From NCBI RefSeq assembly GCF_009789575.1, contig NZ_CP046908.1, positions 4,245,001-4,309,000 of the forward strand: DNA of 64,000 bases, given 5' to 3'. The notes beneath the pieces are model-generated. The model made no database searches. It worked only from the letters and a program-made list of their open reading frames with translations, and was not told the origin of the DNA. The position numbers were made by a program, and so were the translations under genes. The stretch is from Stappia indica. Lineage in GTDB: Bacteria; Pseudomonadota; Alphaproteobacteria; Rhizobiales; Stappiaceae. Below, in pieces: positions 11,426 to 48,772 of this stretch (position 1 is the stretch's first letter; each line of letters starts with the position of its first letter).

Positions 11426-11467
11426 CTTGGGATCTTTCTGCGGATTGGTTGGCGGATCGGGGGCGGA

Positions 11468-13021
11468 TCAGTTGGACGAGGGGGTCCGGAAGCCGCCGAT
11501 CAGGCGGTCGAGCGCCGCGTTGACATAAAAGCCGTTGGCGAAGTGGACCCGCAGACCTGCCGTTGCCGGATGATGCGCCCAGTGCGGGAACAGCGCCTGC
11601 GCGATGGCGACGCCGCCGAAGGAGGCGAGCGCCAGGGCGATCAGCGCCCATTCCAGCGGACCGGCCTGCGGCGGGGCGGGCAGCGAGCCGCCCGCCACCA
11701 GCCCGGCCAGCACATGGAAGCCGAAATAGCCGATGGCGGCCACGACAGAGGCTGTCGCGGTCTTGCGGGTGAGGGCGGCGGGGGCGGCGTCGGCCAGACC
11801 CTGCGCCACCAGATAGGCGACGCCGAAGATCAGGATCGCGCCGAGCGCCAGCGCCTGAGCCGACTTCTCAAGCGGCAGCAGCGAGAAAGCTCCGGCGACA
11901 GCCGCATAAAGAGCGAGGGCGAGCAGGAAGGCACGCGTCACCGCAGCGATGCCGGGCGCGGCGACCGGGCCGGGCCGCCGCGTCGCCTCTACGGCGCGCA
12001 CCGCCGTGCCGGAGGAGAGGAAGGCGTGCGCCTTGTAGAGCGAGTGGGCGACGATGTGCAGCAGGGCGAGCGGCCACAGGCCGAGCCCGCATTGCAGCAG
12101 CATGAAGCCCATCTGCGCGACCGTCGACCAGGCGAGCGCCGTCTTCACCGCGCTCTGGGTTAGCATGACGAGCGCGCCGAACAGGGCCGAGAAGCCGCCG
12201 AGCATGACCAGCAGCGTCATCGCGGCCGGGCTCGCCTGCACCGGCTCGGCAAGGCGGATGAGCAGCAGGCCGCCGGCATTGATGATGCCCGCATGCAGCA
12301 GCGCCGAGACCGGGGTGGGAGCCTCCATCACCTCCGTCAGCCAGCCATGCAGGGGAAAGGCCGCCGTCTTCAGCAGCGCGGCCAGCACGACGAGCAGGAC
12401 GGCGATGTCGGCTGCAAGCGGCATGTCGCCGCTTGCGGCGGCCTCTCCGATGCCGGCGAGCGACACCGTGCCGAAGGCGGCCCAGAAACCGAGCGCGGCA
12501 AGCAGCAGCGCGGCGTCGCCGGCGGTCCAGGCGAGGGTGAACTTCGCCGCTGCCCGCCGGGCCTGCGGCCGCTCGCGGTAGAACAGCAGCAACTGCCGCA
12601 GCAGCACGCCGATGAGGACGAAGCTCAGGATCAGGACCGGCAGGGTGGCGGCCTGTACCAGCACGAGGACGGCGGCGATGGTGGCGAGCAGCAGGCCGTG
12701 GAAGGCGCCTTCCCGCGCCTCGCCGTCGAGATAGCTGCGCGAGAAGCGGGCAACCACCCAGGCGACGAAGGCGACCAGAACCGACATGACCGCCGACACC
12801 GTGTCGAGGGCAAGCGCCAGGGCGAGGGCGTCACTGCCGATGCCGAGCGTTGCCGGGCCGACGAGCGCCAGCTGAAGCGCGCCGGCAAGGGCGAGACCAA
12901 GGGACAGCAGCGCGGCGCCCTCCGCCAGTGCCGGCAAAGCGCCCGGTCGGCGGCCGGGACGAGCCAGGGCGAAGGCGGCAAGGATCAGAAGCGGCAGGGG
13001 CGCGAGCGCTGTGGGGAACAT
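11468..13021 (-). CDS. dabB: Proton-conducting membrane subunit DabB (NuoL-like)
   Basis: A 517-residue, very hydrophobic protein with about 14 membrane segments, related to NuoL/MrpA-type ion-translocating subunits (LLHAGIINAGGLLLIRLAEP, then HIVAHSLYKAHAFLSSG). Immediately upstream of dabA, it is identified as DabB, which couples a cation gradient to DabA's CO2 hydration. The ATG at 13021 is chosen because GGAG lies 7 bases upstream; a TTG at 13075 would extend the frame by 18 charged residues and is less likely. An isolated NuoL homologue beside DUF2309, without other Nuo or Mrp genes, is diagnostic of the DAC system. Confidence 0.9.
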   Translation of the reverse strand: MFPTALAPLPLLILAAFALARPGRRPGALPALAEGAALLSLGLALAGALQLALVGPATLGIGSDALALALALDTVSAVMSVLVAFVAWVVARFSRSYLDGEAREGAFHGLLLATIAAVLVLVQAATLPVLILSFVLIGVLLRQLLLFYRERPQARRAAAKFTLAWTAGDAALLLAALGFWAAFGTVSLAGIGEAAASGDMPLAADIAVLLVVLAALLKTAAFPLHGWLTEVMEAPTPVSALLHAGIINAGGLLLIRLAEPVQASPAAMTLLVMLGGFSALFGALVMLTQSAVKTALAWSTVAQMGFMLLQCGLGLWPLALLHIVAHSLYKAHAFLSSGTAVRAVEATRRPGPVAAPGIAAVTRAFLLALALYAAVAGAFSLLPLEKSAQALALGAILIFGVAYLVAQGLADAAPAALTRKTATASVVAAIGYFGFHVLAGLVAGGSLPAPPQAGPLEWALIALALASFGGVAIAQALFPHWAHHPATAGLRVHFANGFYVNAALDRLIGGFRTPSSN

Positions 13022-13102
13022 TTGGGATCTCCGCAAGTGAAGTGCGCGCCGGAGATACCGCTTGCCAATATTCAAGAAAATTACATATTTATGCGCAAAT
13101 CA

Positions 13103-13117
13103 TTCTATTCAATAGAA
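13103..13117. promoter_or_regulatory. Candidate LysR operator between dabB and LysR gene
   Basis: TTCTATTCAATAGAA is a perfect 15-base palindrome containing a T-N11-A LysR box. It sits in the 115-base A+T-rich divergent region between dabB (start 13021) and the LysR gene (13137), 20 bases before the regulator's start. It is the most obvious binding site for that regulator. Confidence 0.6.
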
Positions 13118-13136
13118 CGATCCACAGGGAATGCCG

Positions 13137-14051
13137 ATGCCGCCGCTCAATCTCCATCACCTCCGGCTGTTCAGCGCTGTCGCCGAGGACGGGACGCTGA
13201 CCGGGGCGGCGCGCCGGCTCAACCTGTCGGCTTCCGCCCTGTCGGCACAGGTGAAGACGCTGGAGGGGGCGCTGGGCCACGATCTCTTCGAGCGGCGCGG
13301 GCGCGGGCTGGTGCTGACCGAGGCGGGGCGCATCGCGCTCGACCATGCGCAGGCGATCTTCCGCACCGCCGAGGACCTGTCGGCGACGCTGAAGGGCGGC
13401 GGGCAGAAGCCGCGCGCCCTGCGCGTCGGCGCGCTGAGCACCCTGTCGCGCAACCTGCAGATCCAGTTCCTGATGCCGGTCATCGGCAAGCCGGATGTCG
13501 ATGTGGTGGTGCGCTCGGGCAGCCAGAAGGAGCTGCTGGCCGGGCTGGACTCGCTGGCGCTGGACGTGGTGCTGACCAATGTCGCACCGGCGCGCGACGA
13601 GGCCCGCCGTTATCTCGTCCACCGCATCGCCGAGCAGGCGGCGAGCCTGATCGGCACGCCGGAACGGGCCGGGCGCGACCGGCCGCTGGTGGATCTGCTG
13701 GTGCGCGAGCCCCTGGTGCTGCCGACCCGCGAGACGGCGATCCGCGCCGCCTTCGACGTGCTGGCCGCGCGTCTCGGCGTCGTGCCGCGCATCGCCGCGG
13801 AGGTGGACGACATGACGATGATCCGCCTGCTGGCGCGCGAGGATGCGGGGCTTGCCGTCATCCCGCCGATCGTCGTGCGGGACGAGCTGGCGAACGGCGT
13901 TCTGGTGGAGGCCGGCCCGCTGCCCGGCATCACCGAGGTCTTCCTGGCCGTGACGGTGGAACGGCGGTTTCCCAATCCGCTGCTGGCGGACCTTTTGTTC
14001 CGCACGCCCGAAGGGGTGCCGGCAAGCTCCGGGGACGGGGCGGCGACATGA
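13137..14051 (+). CDS. LysR-family regulator, probable regulator of dabBA
   Basis: A 304-residue LysR protein. The HTH spans about residues 4-60 (LNLHHLRLFSAVAEDGTLTG, SASALSAQVKTLEGALGHDL) and is followed by an effector domain that resembles the NhaR-like branch. The ATG at 13137 is preferred over the ATG at 13131 because AGGGA (13126-13130) is correctly spaced only for the former. It diverges from dabBA over a short region with a perfect palindrome, so it probably senses CO2 status or an ionic or metabolic signal and controls DAC expression. That function is inferred from context. Confidence 0.87.
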   Translation: MPPLNLHHLRLFSAVAEDGTLTGAARRLNLSASALSAQVKTLEGALGHDLFERRGRGLVLTEAGRIALDHAQAIFRTAEDLSATLKGGGQKPRALRVGALSTLSRNLQIQFLMPVIGKPDVDVVVRSGSQKELLAGLDSLALDVVLTNVAPARDEARRYLVHRIAEQAASLIGTPERAGRDRPLVDLLVREPLVLPTRETAIRAAFDVLAARLGVVPRIAAEVDDMTMIRLLAREDAGLAVIPPIVVRDELANGVLVEAGPLPGITEVFLAVTVERRFPNPLLADLLFRTPEGVPASSGDGAAT

Positions 14052-14253: not shown

Positions 14254-14730
14254 ATGCAAATTGATGAGTTCGACAGAAAAATACTTTCTGTAATTCAAGA
14301 TGATGCTAGCCTATCCATAGCTCAGGTTTCTGAGAGGGTAGGTCTCTCGACAACGCCGTGTTGGCGCCGCCTCCAGAAGCTCGAGCGAGAGGGGTATATC
14401 GACGGCCGCGTAACGCTTTTGAATCAAAGCAGGATCGGCCTCGAGCTCACGGTTTTCGTGATGATACGGACCAGCCAGCATAACACCGCCTGGCTGGAGA
14501 AGTTCAATAGCGTCGTGAGTTTATTCCCGGAAATCGTGGAAGTGAACCGACTGGCGGGCGAGTATGACTATCTCTTGAAGGTAATCACCAAGAGCAATTC
14601 GTCCTACGACGCCTTCTACAAGAAGTTCATCAATCTCATCGAGCTCAATGATGTCACATCCTGTTTCTCAATGGAACAAATCAAGCGAAGTACCCGACTA
14701 CCACTCGACGCTGTCGATGGCGGACGCTGA
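14254..14730 (+). CDS. Lrp/AsnC-family transcriptional regulator
   Basis: A 158-residue regulator with the Lrp HTH at the N terminus (residues about 3-60: IDEFDRKILSVIQDDASLSI, then VGLSTTPCWRRLQKLEREGY) and a RAM/AsnC ligand-binding domain (EIVEVNRLAGEYDYLLKVI). The family senses amino acids or related compounds. The gene and its 200-base upstream region are clearly richer in A+T than the neighbours, with codons such as AAA, ATA and TTT that are rare elsewhere here, hinting at a different origin. Its 3' end overlaps the next gene by 14 bases, so it is the first gene of the thiazoline-hydrolase-like cluster and its likely regulator. Confidence 0.92.
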   Translation: MQIDEFDRKILSVIQDDASLSIAQVSERVGLSTTPCWRRLQKLEREGYIDGRVTLLNQSRIGLELTVFVMIRTSQHNTAWLEKFNSVVSLFPEIVEVNRLAGEYDYLLKVITKSNSSYDAFYKKFINLIELNDVTSCFSMEQIKRSTRLPLDAVDGGR

Positions 14731-16453
14731 CGCGCGCATCGCGCGGATCCGCACCAGCGTCATCGGCGAGGGCCGGGCGATCGAAACCCCCTTCGGCGTG
14801 CGGCCCCTCGTCTATGCGGACTATGTTGCCTCCGGGCGCGGACTGTCCTTCATCGAGGACCTGATCCGCGACCGCATCCTCCCCGACTACGGCAACACCC
14901 ACACCGAAACCTCCTATACCGGCCGGCAGACGACGGTGCTGCGCGAGGCGGCCCGCGAGACCATCCGCAAGGCGGTCGGCGCCGACCAGCGCCATGCGGT
15001 GATCTTCACCGGCTCGGGCGCGACCTCGGCCGTCAACAAGCTGGTGCGCGCGCTGCAGCTGCAAGGCCGCCTGCCGCGGCGGGCGGCCCTGGCCGGGACG
15101 CCCGAGAGCGAGCTGCCGGTGGTCTTCGTCGGCCCCTACGAGCACCATTCCAACGACCTGCCCTGGCGCGAGACCGGCGCCCGCATCCGCCGCATCCCGC
15201 TGAACGCGGCCGGCGGCATCTGCCTTGAGACGCTGGCGAGCGAGCTCGCCGCCGTCGGCGAGGGCGTGCCGCGCATCGGCGTGTTCTCGGCTGCCTCCAA
15301 CGTCACCGGCGTCAAGAGCGACGTGCGGGCGATTGCGAAGCTCCTGCATGCCCATGGCGCCCTGTTCTTCTGCGACTATGCGGCCGGCGCTCCCTACATG
15401 CCGATCTGCATCTCGGAGACGGCGGAAGGGGCGGGCGATCACATCGACGCGCTGTTCCTGTCGCCGCACAAGTTCGTCGGCGGGCCGGGCGCGTCCGGCC
15501 TGTTGATCTGCGACAAGGCGCTGTTCGAGGGCATCGAGCCGACCGCCACCGGCGGCGGCACGGTCAGCTACGTGACCGCGGAAGGGCATTGCTACGTCTC
15601 CAGCGTCGAGCGGCGCGAGGAAGCGGGCACGCCCAACATCGTCGGCGACATCAAGGCCGGCCTGGCGCTGGAACTGAAGGACCGCGTCGGCGCGCACGAA
15701 ATCGAGCGCCGCGAGGCGGCGATGGTGGCACGGGCCATGCGCAACTGGGCGCAGGACCCGAACATCGAACTGCTGGGCCCGCTCGACGCCGAGCGCATCG
15801 GCGTCTTCGCGCTGAACATCCGCAGCGGCTCCAAGAAGCTGCATTACGGTCTCGTCGTCGCGCTGCTGAACGACTTGTTCGGCATCCAGGCGCGCGGCGG
15901 CTGCTCCTGTGCCGGCCCTTACGGCCATGCGCTGCTGGGGATCGGCGACGACGATGCGCTGCGTCACCAGCAGGAAGTGCGCGGCGGCCAGAGCGTGCTG
16001 CGGCCGGGTTGGGTGCGGCTCGGGTTCAACTACTTCTTCGACGAGCGCACCACCGACTACATCATCGAGGCGGTGCGCTTCGTTGCTGCCCATGGCGCGG
16101 CCTTCATGTCGCTCTACAAGGTCAACCCGCAGTCCGGCGTGTGGGCGATGAGCGGCGCGGGGCCCAAGGCGCGGCCTGCAACGCTGCTCGAGGCGCTTGC
16201 CCCCGATGCCGCGCTGCAGCAAACTGCGGCGGCGGAGGTGCCGGACTTCGATACGTGTCTTGAAACGGCGCGGCGGCTGGCGACCGAGCAGGAAGCCGCG
16301 CTGGCCGGCCTTGCCGGGGACCCCTGCGGCGATTGCGGCGAGGACGACAGCCTGCGCTGGTTCTGGCGGCCCGAGGAACTGCCGCTTCTCCACAGCCAGT
16401 TGATCGCCGGGGCGAGAACTTCTATCCACAAGCCCCCGTCCCGGGCCTCTTGA
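14717..16453 (+). CDS. Class V aminotransferase-fold PLP enzyme (cysteine desulfurase/C-S lyase-like)
   Basis: A 578-residue PLP enzyme. The fold-type I core holds the Schiff-base lysine in FLSPHKFVGGPG (K252) and a conserved Cys motif GGCSCAGPYGH (C396, C398) where SufS/CsdA enzymes carry their persulfide-forming cysteine. An extra C-terminal segment of about 130 residues contains PCGDCGEDD, a possible metal or redox site. The ATG at 14717 is chosen because it gives a short overlap with lrp and begins a conserved-looking region; the frame is open to 14648. Family members remove sulfur from cysteine-like substrates, cleave C-S bonds, or act as epimerases. In this cluster a sulfur-releasing or transamination step is plausible but not shown. 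Confidence 0.8.
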   Translation: MADADARIARIRTSVIGEGRAIETPFGVRPLVYADYVASGRGLSFIEDLIRDRILPDYGNTHTETSYTGRQTTVLREAARETIRKAVGADQRHAVIFTGSGATSAVNKLVRALQLQGRLPRRAALAGTPESELPVVFVGPYEHHSNDLPWRETGARIRRIPLNAAGGICLETLASELAAVGEGVPRIGVFSAASNVTGVKSDVRAIAKLLHAHGALFFCDYAAGAPYMPICISETAEGAGDHIDALFLSPHKFVGGPGASGLLICDKALFEGIEPTATGGGTVSYVTAEGHCYVSSVERREEAGTPNIVGDIKAGLALELKDRVGAHEIERREAAMVARAMRNWAQDPNIELLGPLDAERIGVFALNIRSGSKKLHYGLVVALLNDLFGIQARGGCSCAGPYGHALLGIGDDDALRHQQEVRGGQSVLRPGWVRLGFNYFFDERTTDYIIEAVRFVAAHGAAFMSLYKVNPQSGVWAMSGAGPKARPATLLEALAPDAALQQTAAAEVPDFDTCLETARRLATEQEAALAGLAGDPCGDCGEDDSLRWFWRPEELPLLHSQLIAGARTSIHKPPSRAS

Positions 16454-16466
16454 GAACGGACCGCCC

Positions 16467-17765
16467 ATGTTTTCCAGCAAGCAGATCTCGGCATCCCTTT
16501 GGGCGGACACCGCCCCGCCGCGCCAGGCAGGCCCGGCCGTCGCCGGCCGCATCGAGACCGATGTGGCGGTCATCGGCGGGGGATTCTCGGGCCTTTCCAC
16601 GGCGCTGCACCTGGCAAGGGCCGGGCACCAGGTCACGGTGCTGGAAGGCATGGAGGTCGGCTTCGGCGGATCGGGCCGCAACAACGGCCAGGTGATCCCG
16701 ACCATGACGGCGGCAGAGCCGGACGCGATCGAGACGCGATTCGGCGAGGCCGGCGAGCGGTTCGTCGCCCTGGTGCGCGACAGCGCCTCCTACCTGTTCG
16801 ATACCGTCCGCGAGGAAGGGATCGACTGCGAGGGCGAGCAGACCGGCTGGTTCCAGCCCGCGCATCGGGAAAGCCGGCTGAAGCTGAGCCGGGCCCGCGT
16901 CGAGGCCTGGGCAAAGCGCGGCGCGCCGGCGCGCCTGGTGGAAGCGGCCGAATGCGCCGAGCTGCTCGGCTCGGATCGCTGGTTCGGCGGCATGTACAAC
17001 CCGACCGGCGGCCATATCAATCCGCTGGCGCTGGCCCGCGGGCTGGCAAGCGCCTGCGAGGCCAAGGGCGTCGCGATCCGCGAGAAAAGCCCGGTCGAGG
17101 CGGTGGAGCGGCGCGACGGCCGCTGGCACCTGCGCACGCCGACCGGAGAGGTCGTCGCCCGCGCCGTGATGCTGGCCAGCAATGCCTATACCGGTTTCCT
17201 GTCCTCTGAGCTGGCGCCGAAGGTGGCGCGCTCCGTCGTGCCGGTCCTGTCCTGGCAGATGGCGACGCGCCCGCTCACCGATGAGCAGCGCGAGGCGGTG
17301 GTGCCGGGCCGCCAGGCGGTCTCCGACACCCATGGCGACCTGCAGTTCTTCCGCTACGACAAGCGGAACCGCCTGGTGACCGGCGGCGCGCTGGCGCTCG
17401 GTCACAACGGCCCGGACCGGCTGCGCGAGATCGTCGGCCGCCGGCTGCAGACGGCCTTCCCGGTGCTCGGCAAGCCGGAATTCGACTTCGTGTGGAACGG
17501 CTATATCGGCATGACCGAGGACCGCTTCCCCTTCATCTGCCAGCTCGGCCCCGACTTCTGGTGCTGGGCCGGCTGCAACGGCCGCGGCGTCGCCCTTTCG
17601 GTGTCGCTCGGCCGGGAATTCGCAGCGGCGATCGCCGGCACGCCGGTCTCGCAACTCGCCCTGCCGATGTCCGATCCCAAGCCAATCCCCATGCACGGTC
17701 TGGTCACGACCTTCGCCCCGCCGGTGATGCTCCAGCTCTACCGGTGGCGCGACGGCCGCGACTGA
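16467..17765 (+). CDS. FAD-dependent oxidoreductase, DAO/PuuB-like
   Basis: A 432-residue flavoprotein with the FAD motif DVAVIGGGFSGLSTALHLAR (about residues 32-51), then GFGGSGRNNGQVIP. The C-terminal region (WNGYIGMTEDRFPFICQLG, CWAGCNGRGVALSVSLGREF) is the pattern of gamma-glutamylputrescine oxidase and related secondary-amine oxidases. It follows the class V PLP enzyme by 13 bases and precedes the first thiazoline-hydrolase-like gene. Oxidation of a cyclic secondary amine to an imine or thiazoline that the hydrolases then open would fit the neighbours; this is inference. Confidence 0.87.
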   Translation: MFSSKQISASLWADTAPPRQAGPAVAGRIETDVAVIGGGFSGLSTALHLARAGHQVTVLEGMEVGFGGSGRNNGQVIPTMTAAEPDAIETRFGEAGERFVALVRDSASYLFDTVREEGIDCEGEQTGWFQPAHRESRLKLSRARVEAWAKRGAPARLVEAAECAELLGSDRWFGGMYNPTGGHINPLALARGLASACEAKGVAIREKSPVEAVERRDGRWHLRTPTGEVVARAVMLASNAYTGFLSSELAPKVARSVVPVLSWQMATRPLTDEQREAVVPGRQAVSDTHGDLQFFRYDKRNRLVTGGALALGHNGPDRLREIVGRRLQTAFPVLGKPEFDFVWNGYIGMTEDRFPFICQLGPDFWCWAGCNGRGVALSVSLGREFAAAIAGTPVSQLALPMSDPKPIPMHGLVTTFAPPVMLQLYRWRDGRD

Positions 17766-17800
17766 CCCAAGCAACGACAAGCAAAAGGACGATGCCCCAT

Positions 17801-18310
17801 ATGACCCAGGAAACCACCACCGAACCGGTCGTCACGCTCGACATGCTGAAGGCGGCCTTCGCCATGCGCGCCAAGGCCTATGCGCACATGTTCGACGTCC
17901 TGCGCGAGGCCTATGGCGCCGACCGCGCCGTCGAGCTGATCGGCGAATCCACCCGTCGTCTCGGCCAGGACATGGGCAAGAAGTTCGCGCATCTGGGCCC
18001 CGACAACCTGCCGGGCCTGAAGGACGCCTTCATCGGCGGCATCCCGTGCTCGGCGCAGATGTTTGCGCCCGAGATCAAGAAGTGCGACGACGAGAGTCTG
18101 GAAATCCAGTTCCACCGCTGTCCGCTGAAGGACACGTGGACGGAGCAGGGCCGCAACGAGGAAGACCTCGAGCTGCTCTGCAAGGCTGCCGGAGCCATCG
18201 ACGGCGGCCTGTTTACCGAGGCCGGGTTTACCTTCAAGGGAGAAACCTGGACAAAGGGCAAGACCGGTTGCTGCCTGCTGCGGGTGGAGCCGGGCGCGAA
18301 CGCAGGCTGA
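17801..18310 (+). CDS. L-2-amino-thiazoline-4-carboxylate hydrolase-family protein (first paralogue)
   Basis: A 169-residue cytoplasmic protein of the ATC-hydrolase-like family (PF14196 type). I recognise it from length, the FHRCPLKDTWTEQG region and the C-terminal GLFTEAGFTFKGETWTKGKT then GCCLLRVE. It has cysteines at IPCSAQ, KKCDD, HRCP, LLCKAA and the terminal GCC pair. The characterised family member opens the thiazoline ring of L-ATC on the way to L-cysteine. This copy is divergent from the one at 23277, so it may act on a different intermediate. The ATG at 17801 follows AAAGGA at 11 bases; the ATG at 17792 is only 2 bases from it. Confidence 0.72.
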   Translation: MTQETTTEPVVTLDMLKAAFAMRAKAYAHMFDVLREAYGADRAVELIGESTRRLGQDMGKKFAHLGPDNLPGLKDAFIGGIPCSAQMFAPEIKKCDDESLEIQFHRCPLKDTWTEQGRNEEDLELLCKAAGAIDGGLFTEAGFTFKGETWTKGKTGCCLLRVEPGANAG

Positions 18311-18390
18311 GCTGACTGTCATCCCGGCTGCGGGATGGCCCCATCAAACAACAAATCAAAAGCTCTTCCAGAATACAGGAGAAGATCACT

Positions 18391-19515
18391 ATGACGATGT
18401 CTCGCAGGACCACCCTCGGGTTGCTCGCCGGCGTTGCCGGCATGCTCGCCGTGCCGTTCGGTGCGCTGGCCGAGGGGCCGGTTTATCTCGGCTACCAGCT
18501 GCCGCTGACCGGCAACACGGCGCAGTACGGCCAGGACTTCAAGACGGCCGCCGAGATCGCCCTCAAGGACTTCAACGCCTCCGGCAAGATGAAGGTGCCG
18601 GTGGAGATCATCTTCGAGGACTCCCGCTCCGACGCGAAGGAAGGCGTTGCCATCGCCCGCAAGTTCGTCGACGACGACCGCATCGTCGCGGCGCTCGGCG
18701 ACTTCACCTCCACCGTCTCGATGGCCGCTGCCCAGGTCTACAAGCGCGCCGAGATGGCCCAGCTGAGCCAGACCGCCTCGCATCCGGACTTCGCCAAGAT
18801 CTCCGAGTGGCAGTTCCGCAACATCACCACGCAGGCCCAGGAAGGCGTCTACAACGCCGACTGGATGAACGAGCAGGGCCTGAAGAAGATCGCGGTGATC
18901 GCCGAGCAGACCGACTGGGGCCAGTCGGTGGTCAAGGACTTCGCCGAGAAGGTGAAGGCCAATGGCGGCGAGGTGGTCTTCACCGAGTTCTTCAACCGCG
19001 GCCTGCCGGACTTCCGCTCGATCATCACCAAGATCGAGCGCGCCAAGCCGGATGCGATCTACACGGGCTTCTTCTATGAGGACGGCGCCCAGTTCCTCAA
19101 GCAGATGAAGCAGCTGAGCGTCGAGACCCCGGTCTATTCGACCTCCGCCGCGTACAACCAGAAGCTCGTCGAGCTCGCCGGCCCGGCCGCCGAAGGCCTG
19201 TTCCTGACGGTCACCTTCCTGCCCAACAGCGAGAACGAGAACGTCAAGACCTTCGTCGACGAGTGGAAAGCCGCCCGCGACGGCGCCGAGCCCGGCCAGT
19301 TCCCGGCCCAGGCCTATGACGCGGTGAACATCATGCTCGAGGCCGTCGCCCGTGCCTATCCGGACGTCTCGCGCCAGAACGTCCGCGACGAGCTGGCCAA
19401 GACCAAGGACTTCCCGGGCGTCACCGGCGTCACCTCCTTCGACGAGAACGGCGAGGCCCTGAAGCAGCTCACCAAGGCGACGGTGTCGGGCGGCCAGTTC
19501 GTCCCGCTCAAGTAA
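18391..19515 (+). CDS. ABC transporter solute-binding protein, branched-chain amino acid type
   Basis: A 374-residue Leu/Ile/Val-type binding protein (Peripla_BP_6). It has an N-terminal signal peptide with paired arginines (MTMSRRTTLGLLAGVAGMLA; cleavage near GALA-E). The mature part begins GPVYLGYQLPLTGNTAQYGQ, the canonical start of the family. AGGAG lies 9 bases before the ATG. It is followed by two stem-loops and LivHMGF-like genes. Family members bind branched-chain amino acids, amides, urea or aromatic acids. Given the neighbouring amine oxidase and thiazoline-hydrolase-like genes, an amino-acid derivative is likely. Confidence 0.9.
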   Translation: MTMSRRTTLGLLAGVAGMLAVPFGALAEGPVYLGYQLPLTGNTAQYGQDFKTAAEIALKDFNASGKMKVPVEIIFEDSRSDAKEGVAIARKFVDDDRIVAALGDFTSTVSMAAAQVYKRAEMAQLSQTASHPDFAKISEWQFRNITTQAQEGVYNADWMNEQGLKKIAVIAEQTDWGQSVVKDFAEKVKANGGEVVFTEFFNRGLPDFRSIITKIERAKPDAIYTGFFYEDGAQFLKQMKQLSVETPVYSTSAAYNQKLVELAGPAAEGLFLTVTFLPNSENENVKTFVDEWKAARDGAEPGQFPAQAYDAVNIMLEAVARAYPDVSRQNVRDELAKTKDFPGVTGVTSFDENGEALKQLTKATVSGGQFVPLK

Positions 19516-19526
19516 CGTTCGCGCTT

Positions 19527-19559
19527 TTCCCTCTCCGGGCCTGCCGCCCGGGGAGGGAA
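19527..19559 (+). other. Intercistronic stem-loop after the binding-protein gene
   Basis: A 14-bp stem (one G-U pair) with a 5-base loop: TTCCCTCTCCGGGC (19527-19540) pairs with GCCCGGGGAGGGAA (19546-19559). It begins 11 bases after the stop codon and has no T-run, so it is better placed as an mRNA stabiliser or partial attenuator that raises binding protein over permease than as a full terminator. Confidence 0.7.
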
Positions 19560-19566
19560 GACGCAG

Positions 19567-19625
19567 CCGGGCTCCGCAGGCCTGCGCGTATCGGGGGACT
19601 GCCGCCGCCATCACCCGGAGCCCGG
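19567..19625 (+). other. Second intercistronic inverted repeat
   Basis: CCGGGCTCCG (19567-19576) and CGGAGCCCGG (19616-19625) are perfect 10-bp arms enclosing 39 bases, directly after the first stem-loop. Together they make a double-hairpin segment between the binding-protein and LivH-like genes. Confidence 0.55.
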
Positions 19626-19684
19626 GGGGCGGGGGGCGTCACCCTTTCGCCTGGTCCCCGTGTTCCTAGCCAGGACAGACACCC

Positions 19685-20599
19685 GTGATCGATCCCTATT
19701 ACCTGCAACAGCTGACGATCGGCATATCCCTGGGCATGGTCTATGCCCTGATGGCCATCGGTTTCACGCTGATCTTCGGCGTTCTCAACGTCGTCAACTT
19801 CGCCCATGGCGAGGTCTACACGATCGGCGCCTTCGCCGGCATCATGGCGATCGCCGCCTTCGGCCCGCCGTTCCTCGTCATCGTCTTCATCGTCCTGGCG
19901 GTCGGTGCGCTGGCAGGCTTCAGCCTGGAAAGGGTGGCGTTCAGACCATTCCGAAGATTCTCGGACGAAGCCTCGCTGAAATCGCGGGCCATGCGCGAGG
20001 CGACACTGATGTCCTCGCTGGCCATGTCGATCATCGCCCGCGAGGCCATGGAGCTGCTGTTCGGGTCCGAGTTCCAGACCATCGACATCAGCTACCTGAT
20101 CAACAAGCCGATCTCGCTCGGCCCGGTCACCATCGTCAACGGCGACATCATCATCTTCGTGGTCTCGGTGCTGATGCTGGGCGGCCTGCAGTGGCTGCTG
20201 CGCTACAGCTCCATCGGCCTGTCGATCCGCGCGGTGTCGAACAATCCGCTGGGCGCGAAATATGTCGGCATCAACACCGACCGCACCATCGTGCTGACCT
20301 TCGTCATCGGCTCGATGATGGGCGCGCTCGCCGGCATTCTCGTCGGCCTCTACTACGGCGCGGTGTTCCCCTCGATGGGCTTCATCCCGGGGGTCAAGGC
20401 CTTCGTCGCCATGGTCATGGGCGGGTTGAGCTCGATTCCGGGTGCGGTGATCGCGGCGCTGGTGCTGGGTGTGGCGGAAAGCCTGTCGACGACCTTCGTG
20501 TCGTCGGTCTGGGCCGACATGGTCGCGTATCTCTTCCTCATCGTCACCTTGGTGTTCTTCCCGCAGGGGCTCTTCGGAGCGAGGAGGGAACGTGTCTAA
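19685..20599 (+). CDS. ABC transporter permease, LivH type
   Basis: A 304-residue membrane protein beginning MIDPYYLQQLTIGISLGMVY from a GTG at 19685. The LivH hallmarks VYALMAIGFTLIFGVLNVVN and NFAHGE are at residues about 18-45, and the C-terminal loop reads KAFVAMVMGGLSSIPGAVIA. It overlaps the next permease gene by eight bases. With the permease at 20592 it forms the membrane channel of the Liv-type importer in the Lrp cluster. Confidence 0.92.
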   Translation: MIDPYYLQQLTIGISLGMVYALMAIGFTLIFGVLNVVNFAHGEVYTIGAFAGIMAIAAFGPPFLVIVFIVLAVGALAGFSLERVAFRPFRRFSDEASLKSRAMREATLMSSLAMSIIAREAMELLFGSEFQTIDISYLINKPISLGPVTIVNGDIIIFVVSVLMLGGLQWLLRYSSIGLSIRAVSNNPLGAKYVGINTDRTIVLTFVIGSMMGALAGILVGLYYGAVFPSMGFIPGVKAFVAMVMGGLSSIPGAVIAALVLGVAESLSTTFVSSVWADMVAYLFLIVTLVFFPQGLFGARRERV

Positions 20600-21602
20600 G
20601 GACTTCATTCAGTCGGCGGGCCTGAAGCTCGTCATCCTGGCGGTGCTCTTCGTCGCCCTTCCGCTCCTCCTGGTGTCCCTGGACAAGGGCTACATCTACC
20701 AGGTGGTCATGCTGGCCCTGATCTTCTCGCTGCTGGCCGTGTCGCTGCAGCTGGTCACGGGCATTGCCGGGCTGCTGCATCTGGGTCACGCCGCCTTCTA
20801 CGGCGTCGGCGCCTATATCGCGGCGCTGGCCGGGGCCGACTACGGCATCGGCTTCACCCTCGGCCTGCCGCTGGCGGGCCTCGGCGCGGCGGCCATCGCC
20901 TTCGTCGTTGCCCTGCCGACCATGCGTCTCGTCAGCATCTACTTCGCCGTCGCCACGCTCGGCATCGGCCAGATGATCTTCCTCGTCCTGCAGAACTGGG
21001 TCGAGGTGACGAAGGGGCCGAACGGCGTCAGCCTGTTCTCCGGGATCGACCTGTTCGGCTACACCGTCGACAGCGAGCTGGGCATCTACTTCGTGGTCGC
21101 GACCATCGTCTGCATCTCGATCTGGGTCATCCACCGGCTGAGCCATTCCTACTACGGCAATGCCCTGCGCAGCCTGCGCGAGGACGACCAGTGCGCCGAC
21201 GCGATGGGCATCAACACGGTGCGGCTGAAGATCGAGTCCTTCATGATCTCGTCCTTCTTCGCCGGCATCGCGGGTGCCCTGTGGGCCTACACCACGGGCT
21301 ATATCTCGCCGGTGGACTTCGACTTCGCGGAATCGATCCTGATCCTCGCCATGGTCGTGGTCGGCGGCCTGGGCAGCATTCCCGGCGCCATCATCGGCGC
21401 CCTGCTGTTGATCCTGCTGCCCGAGGCCCTGCGCGGGGTGGGCGACATGCGCAACATCATCGTCGGCTTCGTGCTGTTCTTCTCGATCCTGTTCCTGCCC
21501 AAGGGACTGTTCGGCGAGGTTCCGGCGCTCAACTTCGTCCGCCGTCAGTTCGGCTCCGCCTGGCAGGACAATCCCGACAAGCAGAAGGTGGGCTGGAAAT
21601 GA
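20592..21602 (+). CDS. ABC transporter permease, LivM type
   Basis: A 336-residue membrane protein with the LivM signature (LQLVTGIAGLLHLGHAAFYG and the C-terminal LAMVVVGGLGSIPGAIIGAL). The GTG at 20592 is chosen because GAGGAGGGA lies just upstream and the overlap with livH is then eight bases; the open frame continues further upstream without homology. It overlaps the following ATPase gene by ATGA. It partners the LivH-type permease. Confidence 0.9.
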   Translation: MSKDFIQSAGLKLVILAVLFVALPLLLVSLDKGYIYQVVMLALIFSLLAVSLQLVTGIAGLLHLGHAAFYGVGAYIAALAGADYGIGFTLGLPLAGLGAAAIAFVVALPTMRLVSIYFAVATLGIGQMIFLVLQNWVEVTKGPNGVSLFSGIDLFGYTVDSELGIYFVVATIVCISIWVIHRLSHSYYGNALRSLREDDQCADAMGINTVRLKIESFMISSFFAGIAGALWAYTTGYISPVDFDFAESILILAMVVVGGLGSIPGAIIGALLLILLPEALRGVGDMRNIIVGFVLFFSILFLPKGLFGEVPALNFVRRQFGSAWQDNPDKQKVGWK

Positions 21603-22354
21603 CCGCCATGCTCGAGGTGGACAATGTGTCCCGGCGCTTCGGCGGCCTCATGGCTGTCGACAGCGTCACCACCACCGTCGGGGAGCGGGAACTCGTCGGC
21701 CTGATCGGCCCGAACGGCGCCGGCAAGACGACGCTGTTCAACCTGATCTCCGGCTTCACCCCGGTCTCGTCGGGCGAGATCCGCTATCGCGGCGAAAAGA
21801 TCAGCGGCCTCAAGCCGTCGGTCATCGCCTCGAAGGGCATCTCGCGCACGTTCCAGAACCTGCGCGTCTTCCCGAACATGACCGTGTTCGACAACGTCTC
21901 CGTCGGCGCGGTCGGGGCTATCGGCCAGAGCCCCTGGCAGGCGATCGCCGGGGGATCGAAGGGATCGAAGCAGATTTCCGAACGCAGCTGGGAGGCGCTG
22001 GAGAAGGTCCAGCTGACCCAGTATGCCAACGATCTTGCGGCCAACCTTGCCTATGGCAAGCGCAAGTATCTGGAGATCGCCCGCGCGCTGGCGATGAACC
22101 CGGACCTGCTGATCCTTGACGAACCGGCCGCGGGACTGAACGATTCCGAGACGGCGGAGCTGGCCTCCTTCATCAAGGACCTGCATTCCAGCGGCATTAC
22201 CGTCATGCTCGTCGAGCACGACATGGGCCTCGTGATGAGCATTTGCGAGCGCATTGTCGTGCTGGCGTCCGGCAAGAAGATCGCCGATGCGGAACCGTCG
22301 GTCGTCCGGCAGAACCGCGAGGTCCTGGAAGCCTATCTGGGGGTGGACGAGTGA
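21599..22354 (+). CDS. ABC transporter ATPase, LivG type
   Basis: A 251-residue ATPase with Walker A GPNGAGKTT, the LivG-specific FNLISGFTPVSSGEIRY and GISRTFQNLRVFPNMTVFDN regions, and Walker B LLILDEPAAGLNDSE. The signature region is degenerate (ANLAYGKRKYLEIARAL), as is normal for LivG. It overlaps the genes on both sides by 4 bases (ATGA and GTGA), showing a tight operon. Confidence 0.92.
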   Translation: MTAMLEVDNVSRRFGGLMAVDSVTTTVGERELVGLIGPNGAGKTTLFNLISGFTPVSSGEIRYRGEKISGLKPSVIASKGISRTFQNLRVFPNMTVFDNVSVGAVGAIGQSPWQAIAGGSKGSKQISERSWEALEKVQLTQYANDLAANLAYGKRKYLEIARALAMNPDLLILDEPAAGLNDSETAELASFIKDLHSSGITVMLVEHDMGLVMSICERIVVLASGKKIADAEPSVVRQNREVLEAYLGVDE

Positions 22355-23061
22355 ACGTTCTCGAAATCGCAAACCTGTCCCTGCGGATCGGCGTCCAGGA
22401 CATCCTGCACGACATCAGCCTGGACGTCGCCGAGAAGGGCATCTACGCCATTCTCGGCGCCAACGGTGTCGGCAAGACCAGCCTGATGCGCTGCATCTCC
22501 GGCATCTACCACCCGACCGGCGGCGAGATCCGCTACGAGGGCAACAACATCGTCGGCCTGAAGAGCCACCAGATCGTCGATCTGGGCATTCTCCAGGCCC
22601 CCGAGGGGCGGCAGATCTTCTCCAACATGAGCGTGCTGGAGAACCTGACCATCGGCGGCGGACCGCTGAAGACGGCGGAGCTCGACCGGGTGCTCGGGCT
22701 GTTCCCGAAGCTGAAGGAACGGCTCAAGCAGGGCGCGGGCTCCCTGTCGGGCGGCGAGCAGCAGATGCTGTGCATCGGCCGTGCGCTGATGCGCCGGCCC
22801 AAGGTTCTGTTGCTCGACGAGCCCTCGCTCGGCCTTGCGCCGATGCTGGTGCGCTTCATCTTCGACCTCGTCGAGGAGATCCGCGCGCAGGGCTACTCGA
22901 TCCTGATCGTCGAGCAGAACGCCAAGGCGGCGCTGCGCATCGCCGACCGGGCCGCCGTCATCGAGGGCGGCAAGATCGTCATGGAAGGCTCCGCCAAGGA
23001 GCTGGCCAGTGACAGCCGCGTCGCCGACGCCTATCTGGGTGGGCATGTCGCGGCGCACTAG
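22351..23061 (+). CDS. ABC transporter ATPase, LivF type
   Basis: A 236-residue ATPase starting at a GTG that overlaps the LivG stop (GTGA). Walker A is GANGVGKTS, the signature LSGGEQQMLCIGRAL, and Walker B VLLLDEPSLGLAPMLV, all typical LivF. The stop codon TAG (23059-23061) lies inside the CTAG that begins a palindromic element (23058-23134). The last residues (GGHVAAH) may therefore have been set by the insertion of that element. Confidence 0.92.
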   Translation: MNVLEIANLSLRIGVQDILHDISLDVAEKGIYAILGANGVGKTSLMRCISGIYHPTGGEIRYEGNNIVGLKSHQIVDLGILQAPEGRQIFSNMSVLENLTIGGGPLKTAELDRVLGLFPKLKERLKQGAGSLSGGEQQMLCIGRALMRRPKVLLLDEPSLGLAPMLVRFIFDLVEEIRAQGYSILIVEQNAKAALRIADRAAVIEGGKIVMEGSAKELASDSRVADAYLGGHVAAH

Positions 23062-23134
23062 TGTGGTGAATTTGAAATACGCCTCACTTTGGCAGCAAAT
23101 CCAGAGCGTATTTCAAATTCGAAAACCACACTAG
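23058..23134. repeat. CTAG-ended palindromic element, copy 1
   Basis: A 77-base inverted repeat. The left arm starts CTAGTGTGGT then GAATTTGAAATACGC; the right arm is its reverse complement with four extra bases (GAAA) and ends ACCACACTAG. The terminal CTAG contains the livF stop codon. The arms resemble copy 2 (23147-23224) in layout: CTAGT, five variable bases, TTTC/T, GAAT-TGAA. Confidence 0.85.
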
Positions 23135-23146
23135 AAACATAAACTT

Positions 23147-23224
23147 GCTAGTCACCCTTTTGAATCTGAAGTTCGTTCAGAGCATGCCGGGAAATGTGAC
23201 GAACTTCAGATTCGGGTGACTAGC
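23147..23224. repeat. CTAG-ended palindromic element, copy 2
   Basis: A 78-base inverted repeat. The left arm GCTAGTCACCC, TTTT, GAATCTGAAGTTCGT is mirrored by ACGAACTTCAGATTC then GGGTGACTAGC, which lacks the four-base TTTT. It lies 12 bases from copy 1 and in the opposite orientation, judged by which arm carries the extra tetranucleotide. The pair separates livF from the second thiazoline-hydrolase-like gene. Confidence 0.85.
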
Positions 23225-23276
23225 CGCGGCATCCGCCAGGACACCACGGGCACGACACACGAAAGAGGGACCCACG

Positions 23277-23747
23277 ATGACGCTGCCGATGATCGAGAAA
23301 CGCCGGATCGAGGCCGCGGTCCTCAAGCACGTCTTCGATGTGCTGGTGGAGCGGCACGGGCGCGAGGAAGCGGAAAAGGTGATCGGCGAGGCCGTCTCCA
23401 ACTCCGCCATCGCGCAGGGCAAGGAGTTCCGGGAGAAGGAGCCGCAGGAGCCCAACCTCGAGAACTTCGCCGACCTGCTGCCGCTGTGGCAGATGGACGA
23501 CGCGCTGCAGATCGAGGTGCTGGAGAAAGGGCCGGACCGGCTCGACTTCAACGTCAAGCGCTGCCGCTATTCCGAGGTCTACAAGGAGATGGGGCTCGGC
23601 GACATCGGCCACCTGCTCTCCTGCAATCGCGATGGCGACTTCTGCATCGGCTACAACCCGAAGATGGAGCTGACGCGCACCCAGACGATCATGAAGGGCG
23701 CGTCCCATTGCGACTTCCGCTACCGGCTGAAGCCGGCGGCCGAATAA
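23277..23747 (+). CDS. L-2-amino-thiazoline-4-carboxylate hydrolase-family protein (second paralogue)
   Basis: A 156-residue protein of the same family as 17801-18310 but closer to its core. It has DFNVKRCRYSEVYKEMGLGD, then HLLSCNRDGDFCIGYNPKME and TRTQTIMKGASHCDFRYRLK; the RCRY, SCNRD and HCDFRY cysteine-centred motifs are characteristic. It is co-directional with the Liv-type transporter and has its own AGAGGGA ribosome-binding site. Two palindromic elements now separate it from livF. Two divergent paralogues in one cluster suggest either two successive ring or amide hydrolyses or a heteromeric enzyme. Its terminus is convergent with the EamA gene at 23787. Confidence 0.8.
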   Translation: MTLPMIEKRRIEAAVLKHVFDVLVERHGREEAEKVIGEAVSNSAIAQGKEFREKEPQEPNLENFADLLPLWQMDDALQIEVLEKGPDRLDFNVKRCRYSEVYKEMGLGDIGHLLSCNRDGDFCIGYNPKMELTRTQTIMKGASHCDFRYRLKPAAE

Positions 23748-23786
23748 GCCTCTGCGCGTTCCCGTTTCAAGATGACGGCGCGGCTC

Positions 23787-24722
23787 TCACGGGCCGCGCC
23801 GTTTTCTTTCGGTGAAGACGAGGCCGATGCCGCAGGCGGCGATCAGCGCTGCGCCGACCAGCGTCAGCGGGCGCGGCGGCAGGTCGAACAGCAGAAAATC
23901 GAAGAGGGCGGCCCAGATCACCGCCGAATAGCGGGTGGCGGCGACCATGGTCGAGCGGCGCGCCCGCGTTGCCGAGGCGATCAGCAGGTTGCTGAGGATG
24001 TAGAAGACGATCATCGCCGCGATGATGCCCGTCTCGCCCGCGACCAGCGGCCGCCAGTCGCCGACGACACCCATCGCGAATGCCAGGATCAGCGTCGCGA
24101 CGCTGGCCGTGAACGACAGTTCGAGGCTGGGCACGGTCGAGGCGCGCCGGCTCGTCAGCATGTCGCGGGCCACATAGAAGGCGGCCGAGCCGATGGCCGA
24201 AAGGGCGCCTTCCATGCTGCCGGCCAGCGCCGGGCCGGTGGCGATCAGCGCGCCGGAAAACGCCAGCAGCAGCAGGATGCGCCCGCGCGGCGACAGGGGC
24301 TCGCCCGCCAGCAGCCAGTTCATCGCCATCACCCCGATGGGGATCGTCATCATCACCGTGGCGACGAAGCTGAGCGGGGCGAGGGTGAGCGCATGCATCA
24401 ACCCTGCCGTCGCGACGGCCTCCAGCGCGGCGCGCGCCAGCACCACGCGCGGCGGCCAGCGCAGGCCCCGCCGGATCATCAGCGGCAACAGGATGAAGAT
24501 CGTGCCGACCGCCCGCAGCAGGATCAGCTGGCTGGTCGGCATCACCGCCAGCAGCTTGACGCAGGCATTGTTGATGTTGCCGGCCCCGGTCGCCAGCAGT
24601 CCCTCGATCAGCGGCCGCCGGTCGCCGGGGGGCGGCGGCTGGCCCTGATCGGTCCCGTTCGGATCGGGTGCGGGCTGCCCGGATTTGGGGTGATCGCGCA
24701 ATCGGCCGGCATCTGAGGGCAT
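23787..24722 (-). CDS. EamA/DMT-family transporter
   Basis: A 311-residue protein with about ten membrane segments in two EamA repeats (LLATGAGNINNACVKLLAVM in the first helix, then RAVGTIFILLPLMIRRG). An N-terminal hydrophilic stretch of about 38 residues is rich in proline and aspartate, so the true start may be internal. It is the last gene of a leftward group after dgoK and dgoA, 30 bases downstream of dgoA. It may export an intermediate or have no direct role in sugar-acid use. Confidence 0.82.
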   Translation of the reverse strand: MPSDAGRLRDHPKSGQPAPDPNGTDQGQPPPPGDRRPLIEGLLATGAGNINNACVKLLAVMPTSQLILLRAVGTIFILLPLMIRRGLRWPPRVVLARAALEAVATAGLMHALTLAPLSFVATVMMTIPIGVMAMNWLLAGEPLSPRGRILLLLAFSGALIATGPALAGSMEGALSAIGSAAFYVARDMLTSRRASTVPSLELSFTASVATLILAFAMGVVGDWRPLVAGETGIIAAMIVFYILSNLLIASATRARRSTMVAATRYSAVIWAALFDFLLFDLPPRPLTLVGAALIAACGIGLVFTERKRRGP

Positions 24723-24752: not shown

Positions 24753-25385
24753 TCAGCCGGCGGGGAAGGCGGTACGGGCGGCCGCGACCAAGCCGCGCGC
24801 CTTGTCCGCAAGCTGATCCAGCGACATGCCCGGCCGGTAGAGCGAGGAGCCGAGGCCGAAGCCGCTGGCGCCGGCCTCGCACCAGGGCGCCATCGTCGTG
24901 GTGTCGATGCCGCCGACGGGAAGCAGCAGCGCGTCTTTCGGCATGACGCTGCGCCAGGCCTTCAGCGCGCGGGGCTCCATCGCCTCGGCCGGGAAGAGCT
25001 TCAGCGCGTCCGCCCCCTGGCGCAGCGCGGCGAAGGCCTCCGACGGGGTGGCGACGCCCGGAAGCGTCGCCAGTCCGCAAGCCTGCGCCTCCGCCACCAC
25101 GTCGGGCGCGTAGTTCGGCGCGACCATCAGCCGGCCGCCGACATCGGCAAGCCGGCGGCACTGGTCGGGCTCGAGCACCGTGCCGGCGCCGATCAGCGCG
25201 CGCTCGCCGTGGGACTTTGCGAGCTTGCCGATGCTGGCGAAGGGATCGGGCGAGTTGAGCGGAACCTCGATGATGCGGAAGCCGGCCTCGAACAGGACGT
25301 CGGCGACATCGGTGATTTCCGCCGGCGTGACGCCGCGCAGGATGGCAATGAGCGGGCAGGCGGCAAGCGCTTCGCGCAAGGTCAT
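24753..25385 (-). CDS. dgoA: 2-dehydro-3-deoxy-6-phosphogalactonate aldolase
   Basis: A 210-residue class I aldolase that splits 2-keto-3-deoxy-6-phosphogalactonate to pyruvate and glyceraldehyde 3-phosphate. The KDPG/KDPGal aldolase features are present: LIAILRGVTPAEITDVADVL, the catalytic Glu in FRIIEVPLNSP, GAGTVL, and the Schiff-base Lys in ADALKLFPAE. Adjacency to dgoK and the VAPNYAPDVVAEA and VGGIDTTTMAPW wording point to the galactonate rather than the gluconate enzyme. It overlaps dgoK by four bases. Confidence 0.92.
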   Translation of the reverse strand: MTLREALAACPLIAILRGVTPAEITDVADVLFEAGFRIIEVPLNSPDPFASIGKLAKSHGERALIGAGTVLEPDQCRRLADVGGRLMVAPNYAPDVVAEAQACGLATLPGVATPSEAFAALRQGADALKLFPAEAMEPRALKAWRSVMPKDALLLPVGGIDTTTMAPWCEAGASGFGLGSSLYRPGMSLDQLADKARGLVAAARTAFPAG

Positions 25386-26347: not shown

Positions 26348-26424
26348 GAATCGGTCCTTTCGGGGGAGGCGATGGGTCGAGCATTCATGCTTGTCTTAGC
26401 CGGAGAAACAAGATAGTGTCAATT

Positions 26425-26435
26425 TATGAAACATA
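26425..26435. promoter_or_regulatory. Candidate operator in the dgoK/DapA-like divergent region
   Basis: TATGAAACATA has 4-bp arms around AAA and lies in an A+T-rich divergent intergenic region. GAAACA half-sites are known from IclR/KdgR-type operators, and an IclR-type protein is encoded downstream at 33751. The match is short, so this is only a candidate. Confidence 0.3.
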
Positions 26436-26460
26436 GTCTCACATATTGGACATAGACGAC

Positions 26461-28550: not shown

Positions 28551-28572
28551 AAGCCAAGTGGAGGAAAACGCG

Positions 28573-47217: not shown

Positions 47218-47234
47218 GCCATCGCCTCTCCCTC

Positions 47235-47260
47235 CGGACCCGCGCAGTGGCGCGGGTCCG
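47235..47260 (+). other. Intercistronic hairpin after the binding-protein gene
   Basis: CGGACCCGCGC (47235-47245) and GCGCGGGTCCG (47250-47260) form a perfect 11-bp stem with a 4-base loop. No T-run follows. It lies between the binding-protein and LivG-like genes, probably stabilising the upstream message. Confidence 0.7.
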
Positions 47261-47286
47261 CCCGGACTGACGAAGAGGATTTCGCC

Positions 47287-48758: not shown

Positions 48759-48772
48759 GCGGGAGCAACACC

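Follow-up and report, generated by a model that had tools for sequence, protein, structure and literature searches.

A 64,000-nucleotide window of the Stappia indica genome (contig NZ_CP046908.1, positions 4,245,001 to 4,309,000; coordinates below are those of the window) contains a predicted operon of ten co-directional genes on the plus strand (14254-23747), which on the evidence is about as likely as not to mediate the uptake and breakdown of thiazolidine-4-carboxylates. The operon has close counterparts in numerous alphaproteobacteria. The ten genes, including two paralogues of the L-2-amino-thiazoline-4-carboxylate (ATC) hydrolase family, had been listed in a first-pass annotation of the window, and both the arrangement and the family assignment were confirmed, the two proteins (ATC1 and ATC2) scoring 49.7 and 136.5 bits against the PF14196 model (cut-off 28.1 bits). 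The remaining genes encode an Lrp/AsnC-family regulator, a class V pyridoxal 5'-phosphate (PLP) enzyme (PLPV), a flavin-dependent oxidase of the DAO family and a Liv-type importer.

The presumed substrates are rings formed spontaneously from cysteine and aldehydes, such as thioproline with formaldehyde. In the predicted pathway, the importer would take up the thiazolidine-4-carboxylate and the DAO oxidase would remove two electrons at the ring C2-N bond, yielding a delta2-thiazoline-4-carboxylate. Addition of water by ATC2, ATC1 or both would break the C-S bond to give an N-acylcysteine (N-formylcysteine from thioproline), from which an M20-family aminoacylase, in Stappia presumably an unlinked paralogue, could release cysteine and an acid. 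PLPV would then strip the sulfur from cysteine, a step that a Cds1-like desulfhydrase and RidA may perform instead in an Azospirillum sister cluster, and the DecR-like regulator would sense cysteine. We favor this interpretation because each product fits the next enzyme in the chain, and because the last enzyme, which is exchanged between the two versions, belongs in each to a cysteine-degrading type. The presence of two linked members of PF14196, a family whose name refers to the opening of thiazoline rings, also counts in its favor.

Enzyme families encoded by the operon

ATC1 and ATC2 share 26% identity and are the sole PF14196 matches in their own genome. The three conserved cysteines expected of this family were found in both paralogues. 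C96, C116 and C145 are invariant in an alignment of 24 ATC2 sequences, and among 38 aligned ATC1 sequences C110 and C161 are invariant and C130 and C160 are conserved in at least 90%. Positions C110 and C130 of ATC1 pair with C96 and C116 of ATC2 in hhalign comparisons, and BLASTP pairs C160, which adjoins C161, with C145. Conserved cysteines have been noted for the ATC-hydrolase family (PMC5847659). The predicted structural models, with mean predicted local distance difference test scores of 93.6 (ATC1) and 92.8 (ATC2), matched solved V4R/Bet3-like structures, and the matching folds belong to ligand-binding or non-enzymatic proteins (Bet3, MopR, PoxR and H-NOX). Searches against NCBIfam returned no match for either protein, and sequence searches of the PDB with the ATC1 sequence and an ATC2 profile returned no significant relative. 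When 385 genomes of the class were searched with a profile, ATC1 was detected at an E-value of 1e-25 or better in 16, the window genome included, and the distribution of the gene is therefore patchy. Our guess is that the two paralogues divide their substrates by ring substituent or handedness, an idea made attractive by the racemase encoded in some clusters.

The oxidase scored 229.2 bits against the Pfam DAO model. The Liv-type importer is complete, comprising a Peripla_BP_6 binding protein, two BPD_transp_2 permeases and two ABC_tran ATPases (Pfam), and the closest solved structure to its binding protein is 3hut (E-value 1.9e-87). Among the three Escherichia coli proteins compared, BLASTP placed the regulator closest to DecR (47% identity, 158 bits), followed by Lrp (38%, 103 bits) and AsnC (25%, 48.5 bits), and the same order was obtained for the regulators of two other cluster types. 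DecR/CcdR regulators have been described to mediate the induction by cysteine of a cysteine desulfidase or desulfhydrase (PMC5423876).

PLPV scored 150.9 bits against the Pfam Aminotran_5 model, and its catalytic domain aligns with that of SufS (5j8q), including the SufS lysine and cysteine positions. Residues K252, C396 and C398 are invariant in the 17 sequences aligned, one of them encoded at a locus (L163) that lacks the ATC set. K252 and C398 align with the PLP-binding lysine and the active-site cysteine of SufS. Relatives of PLPV at an E-value of 1e-60 or better were sought in 297 genomes from the order and found in 41. In nine of the 20 PLPV loci fetched (L152, L154, L155 and L157-L162), the PLPV-like gene adjoins a divergent Lrp-type regulator; the 1.5 kb flanks of these nine contain no ATC gene, and their genomes gave no ATC1 match. 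The two genes perhaps form a stand-alone cysteine-degrading pair, and their pairing in genomes without ATC1 indicates that the PLPV reaction is not restricted to the pathway proposed here.

Conservation and variants of the gene set

Conservation was assessed in loci fetched by ATC1 alone and chosen by two peptide patterns derived by aligning 15 ATC1 proteins. A wide scan with the ATC1 alignment supplied the best 80 of 93 loci, a flank filter (at least 4 kb upstream and at least 8.5 kb downstream) retained 66 of these 80 and dropped 14, and in 48 of the 66 the ATC1 shares 50% identity or more with that of the window, the other 18 having a second-type ATC1 or one below 50%. The loci are not independent, with Azospirillum over-represented and several of the 80 coming from the same genomes as loci L031-L042. 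Gene presence was called with tblastn bit-score limits of our own setting, and some of the locus gene lists stem from a home-made gene caller and include some antisense open reading frames.

The 48 loci revealed a stable core around ATC1. DAO was detected in 47 of them, the binding protein, LivH and LivG in 43 each, LivM in 42, LivF in 45 and ATC2 in 40, counts that in some cases include distant relatives (LivH of L118; LivF of L090 and L102). The full core of DAO, binding protein, LivHMGF and ATC2 accompanied ATC1 in 40 of the 48 loci. The more variable members were the M20 hydrolase (27 loci), the Lrp-type regulator (14), PLPV (11) and a racemase (3). Five loci yielded no LivH match (L082, L089, L090, L102 and L109). 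In L090 and L102 the LivF match (46-47% identity) belongs to another Liv-like importer and the DAO match is on the opposite strand at a distance of about 7 kb; by eye, L102 also has a more distant Liv-like importer nearby. LivH occurs without ATC2 in L094, L115 and L118, the last of which has Liv matches of 34-44% identity (LivH 36%) on the other strand and no DAO. In addition, twelve loci from the same order as Stappia (L031-L042, ATC1 at least 54% identical) all carry DAO, ATC1, the binding protein, LivHMGF and ATC2.

The set is preserved in several arrangements. The order PLPV-DAO-ATC1-Liv-ATC2 of the window is replaced by PLPV-ATC1-Liv-DAO-ATC2-M20 in Celeribacter and Cohaesibacter celericrescens and by M20-DAO-ATC1-Liv-ATC2 in Azospirillum, and DAO is divergent from ATC1 in several metagenome-assembled genomes (for instance, L124, L126 and L129). 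That the genes have been held together through rearrangement points to a shared function. A DAO query of five genomes from the order, starting with that of the window, returned 1, 3, 1, 1 and 3 matches of at least 200 bits (HMMER bits, those of the locus census being tblastn bits). With so few copies per genome, a random 20 kb segment would hold a DAO gene about 1% of the time, as against 47 of 48 loci, and chance clustering was ruled out by this count and by the 40 loci with the full core. In Stappia sp. TSB10P1A (L065, 3156-8564), extra genes lie between PLPV and DAO. By eye, they resemble those for a flavin monooxygenase, for an AhpD-like protein and, as a set of three, for a tripartite ATP-independent periplasmic (TRAP) importer, which is perhaps a second importer inside the same cluster.

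The variable genes bear on the chemistry of the proposed route. The M20 protein of one cluster (L027) scored 372.8 bits against TIGR01891 (cut-off 153.75) and 28.5 bits against the carbamoylase family TIGR01879 (cut-off 204), and that of another (L029) scored 358.5 bits against TIGR01891. By these scores, the two cluster M20 proteins analyzed are of the N-acyl amidohydrolase type and not of the carbamoylase type. The N-carbamoylcysteine hydrolase of the Pseudomonas ATC route is presumably of the hydantoinase/carbamoylase type, outside which the L027 protein falls. These scores and the recurrence of an M20 hydrolase in 27 of the 48 loci point to an N-acyl, rather than an N-carbamoyl, intermediate. 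In the second-type Azospirillum clusters (L029, L135, L136 and L140-L142), RidA and a different PLP enzyme replace PLPV. The L029 enzyme scored 535.4 bits against the model for the L-cysteine desulfhydrase Cds1, below its cut-off of 600, with the next model at 131.3 bits, and it is classed on this profile evidence as a close relative of Cds1, not Cds1 proper. Together with RidA, this Cds1-like enzyme indicates that cysteine is probably the end product.

Further variants were observed in other clusters. A gene of the Asp/Glu-racemase family adjoins the regulator in some of them, and in a Rhizobium locus (L082) an NMT1-like binding protein is encoded close to DAO and ATC1. Locus L164 combines PLPV (54% identity), DAO (60%), ATC2 (63%) and M20 (51%) in one run beside an Opp/Dpp-type importer (SBP_bac_5), and would represent a compact form of the proposed oxidation, ring-opening, deacylation and desulfuration steps. 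Judging from these gene contents, importers are exchangeable among clusters.

Overall, these results bear out several suggestions of the first-pass annotation. Its proposal withstood both of the refuting conditions that it had named, since the two hydrolases score above the PF14196 cut-off and the gene set recurs in other genomes, in several gene orders. Its distinction of the set from that of the Pseudomonas ATC route agrees with the N-acyl amidohydrolase type of the two cluster M20 proteins. Its outline of cyclic amino acid uptake, oxidation, ring opening and loss of sulfur fits the set-bearing relatives but missed the deacylation step implied by the M20 hydrolase; the involvement of sulfur gained additional support from the Cds1-like enzyme and RidA of the sister cluster and from the DecR-like regulator.

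Weighing of candidate substrates

Several observations weigh against a thiazolidine substrate or against individual steps of its proposed degradation. PLPV is missing from 37 of the 48 loci and also occurs in genomes without ATC1. Its score against the NCBIfam sufS model was 143.4 bits (cut-off 475.1), with lower scores against other desulfurase models; being far below every listed desulfurase cut-off, it is therefore described as a desulfurase-type class V PLP enzyme and not as SufS. A need for two hydrolases is at odds with ATC1 occurring without ATC2 within the 20 kb fetched for L082, L089 and L109, and with L164, whose genome has a single PF14196 match, of the ATC2 type; these four loci rule out an obligate ATC1-ATC2 complex as the sole working form. 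More distant ATC1 proteins keep other company. All eight loci L043-L050 (ATC1 relatives of 30-35% identity from the same order, 8 of its 11 lower-identity genomes) lack the set and yielded no LivH or DAO match, with a DAO relative at 34-35% identity in L045 and L048, and among 23 second-type ATC1 loci, a few of them on short contigs, DAO was found in 12, LivH in 10 and neither in 11. The Liv-type importer, furthermore, says little about its ligand. Regarding the proposed intermediate, N-formylcysteine is reported to form also in enzyme-free buffer, and its origin from thioproline was left undecided by the authors (PMC9814826).

For the deacylation step in Stappia itself, no M20 match was found in the window locus or in those of six near relatives (L063-L068). 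The window genome contains 16 matches to PF01546, the best of which is unlinked and 50% identical to a cluster M20. In a phylogenetic tree, this protein falls among paralogues encoded outside the clusters in two f44 genomes (support 90/91), in a clade that is sister to one clade of cluster proteins (92/84), and the two f44 genomes hold the non-cluster M20 beside a cluster M20. The unlinked gene was accordingly rejected as a displaced cluster member. Because the Stappia paralogue falls in a non-cluster clade, its role in deacylation is an assumption.

The best NCBIfam model for the DAO oxidase is that of the L-pipecolate oxidase AmaA (NF050086), at 265 bits and below the cut-off of 600, and a sulfur-free ring must therefore be kept in view. 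A sulfur-free cyclic secondary amine, such as a pipecolate-, imidazoline- or pyrimidine-like amino acid, in which the ATC proteins would cleave a C=N bond and M20 the amide, is unlikely, yet the best placed of the alternatives. It would also be compatible with an importer of general amino-acid type and with the little that was found in print on the ATC family, but the PLP partners are cysteine-desulfurase- or desulfhydrase-like and the regulator is DecR-like, which points to cysteine.

Slightly less probable is ATC itself, the cysteine-cyanide adduct, as the substrate. ATC1 and ATC2 would then produce N- or S-carbamoylcysteine, M20 would decarbamoylate it, PLPV would use the resulting cysteine, and the oxidase would be peripheral. 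In Pseudomonas, routes lead from ATC through carbamoylcysteine to cysteine, one of them with an ATC racemase (PMC10821248), and this reading would accommodate both the clear PF14196 membership of ATC2 and the Asp/Glu-type racemase of some clusters. It leaves without a role the most constant partner of ATC1, the DAO oxidase (47 of 48 loci), and the two cluster M20 proteins, neither of which belongs to the carbamoylase type, also speak against it.

Larger thiazolines or thiazolidines were judged improbable substrates, examples being pieces of thiazoline siderophores and peptides whose N-terminal cysteine has formed an aldehyde adduct. M20 enzymes can take bulky acyl groups, and the importers vary (Opp/Dpp-type in L164, NMT1-like in L082), perhaps with ligand size, but a branched-chain-amino-acid importer is the usual type. 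DAO-family oxidases often dealkylate N-substituted amino acids, and a linear N- or S-substituted cysteine, dealkylated at its secondary amine by the oxidase while the ATC proteins cut another bond or merely bind a ligand, would suit their fold matches to ligand-binding or non-enzymatic proteins. This least probable of the alternatives is opposed by the naming of the family for a ring-opening hydrolase and by the conservation in both paralogues of cysteine positions noted for the family (PMC5847659).

Returning to thiazolidine-4-carboxylates, a broader interpretation, which we advance tentatively and hold somewhat less probable than not, is that the operon and its relatives form a dedicated environmental scavenging system for cysteine-aldehyde thiazolidines. 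Such a system would combine a DecR-like regulator, an importer, a thiazolidine oxidase, an N-acylcysteine hydrolase, a cysteine-degrading PLP enzyme and two conserved-cysteine hydrolases of V4R/Bet3 fold, acting on differently substituted or opposite-handed thiazolines, to supply sulfur, nitrogen and a carboxylic acid such as formate. Formaldehyde combines readily with cysteine (PMC9814826), and thiazolidines should be common at sites of cell lysis, given the reactivity of cysteine towards aldehydes. If correct, the proposal would define, for alphaproteobacteria living in the sea or associated with roots, a new branch in the cycling of organic sulfur. It would also assign a likely substrate to two divergent subfamilies of a poorly characterized hydrolase family and a role to a class V PLP family, and would provide candidate enzymes for freeing cysteine from aldehyde adducts.

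Locus organization and comparison with known systems

Table 1. Features of the predicted operon, in window coordinates.
Feature	Position	Strand	Basis
Lrp/AsnC-family regulator, DecR-like	14254..14730	+	Pfam HTH_AsnC-type and AsnC_trans_reg; BLASTP
PLPV, class V PLP enzyme, cysteine-desulfurase type	14717..16453	+	Aminotran_5; SufS alignment
DAO-family flavin adenine dinucleotide (FAD) oxidase	16467..17765	+	Pfam DAO; NF050086
ATC1, first ATC-hydrolase-family protein	17792..18310	+	PF14196; predicted V4R/Bet3-like fold
Periplasmic binding protein	18391..19515	+	Peripla_BP_6
LivH-type permease	19685..20599	+	BPD_transp_2; NCBIfam
LivM-type permease	20592..21602	+	BPD_transp_2; NCBIfam
LivG-type ATPase	21599..22354	+	ABC_tran; NCBIfam
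LivF-type ATPase, GTG start	22351..23061	+	ABC_tran; NCBIfam
ATC2, second ATC-hydrolase-family protein, higher-scoring	23277..23747	+	PF14196; predicted V4R/Bet3-like fold
Terminator-like stem-loop 3' of ATC2, 13 pairs, 10 G-C	23774..23803	+	Pattern scan only

The genes of the predicted operon are closely spaced (Table 1). The regulator and PLPV genes overlap if PLPV starts at the ATG at 14717, the earlier in-frame ATG being at 14648. PLPV and DAO are separated by 13 bases and DAO and ATC1 by 26, the binding-protein gene is flanked by gaps of 80 and 169 bases, and LivM, LivG and LivF overlap their upstream neighbors by 8, 4 and 4 bases. The LivF-ATC2 gap measures 215 bases in the window and 40 in two relatives (L031 and L032), the difference being due to a repeated element within the gap. 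This 166-base element (23060-23225) contains two inverted repeats and matches 12 further sites in the genome over at least 160 bases at 78-97% identity. In the window, LivF terminates with a TAG codon, whereas both relatives use TGA. A pattern scan found no promoter-like site, using a consensus that may not be that of the host, and terminator-like sites numbered 8 in the region against a shuffle mean of 6.2.

Upstream of the operon (9023-14051), inspection by eye identified a DabA/DabB-like inorganic-carbon transporter pair with a divergent LysR-type regulator. A sugar-acid catabolic cluster lies downstream (24753-29850), with what appear by eye to be a 2-keto-3-deoxy-6-phosphogluconate-type aldolase, a keto-deoxy sugar kinase, an enolase-superfamily enzyme and a sugar binding protein. 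A second Liv-like importer cluster was detected at 46012-50646, with no match there to the other pathway proteins.

Parts of the proposed route have counterparts in known systems. A search of the literature, covering titles and the openings of abstracts, returned no description of this gene set or of a dedicated thiazolidine operon. The Pseudomonas ATC-to-cysteine pathway, as presented in PMC10821248, shares with it an ATC-family hydrolase, the hydrolysis of the amide of an S- or N-acyl-type cysteine, cysteine as the product and, in one version, a racemase. Unlike that pathway, the Stappia-type set includes DAO (47 of 48 loci), two hydrolase paralogues (40 of 48), an N-acyl-type M20 hydrolase (27 of 48), an importer and, in some copies, a PLP enzyme of cysteine-degrading type. 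The same chemistry, ring oxidation leading to N-formylcysteine, is proposed where proline dehydrogenase, ProC or mitochondria oxidize thioproline (PMC9814826), and E. coli ProC is reported to oxidize thioproline (PMC12899673), so that the chemistry proposed here has precedent. In those cases the activity resides in proline enzymes or tissue extracts, whereas the present proposal is of an operon devoted to the task and equipped with an importer, an oxidase and hydrolases of its own.

The juxtaposition of a DecR-like regulator and a PLP enzyme of cysteine-degrading type is shared with the DecR/CcdR-controlled cysteine degradation systems (E. coli YhaM/CyuA and Pantoea CcdA). In Pantoea, ccdR adjoins ccdA (PMC5423876). 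The Stappia module differs from these systems in adding import, oxidation and ring opening and in the class V type of its PLP enzyme. AmaA provides the closest named oxidase model to DAO, but at 265 of the 600 bits of its cut-off, and cysteine is what the linked genes indicate. The general kind of route, in which a thiazoline ring is opened on the way to cysteine, is already known.

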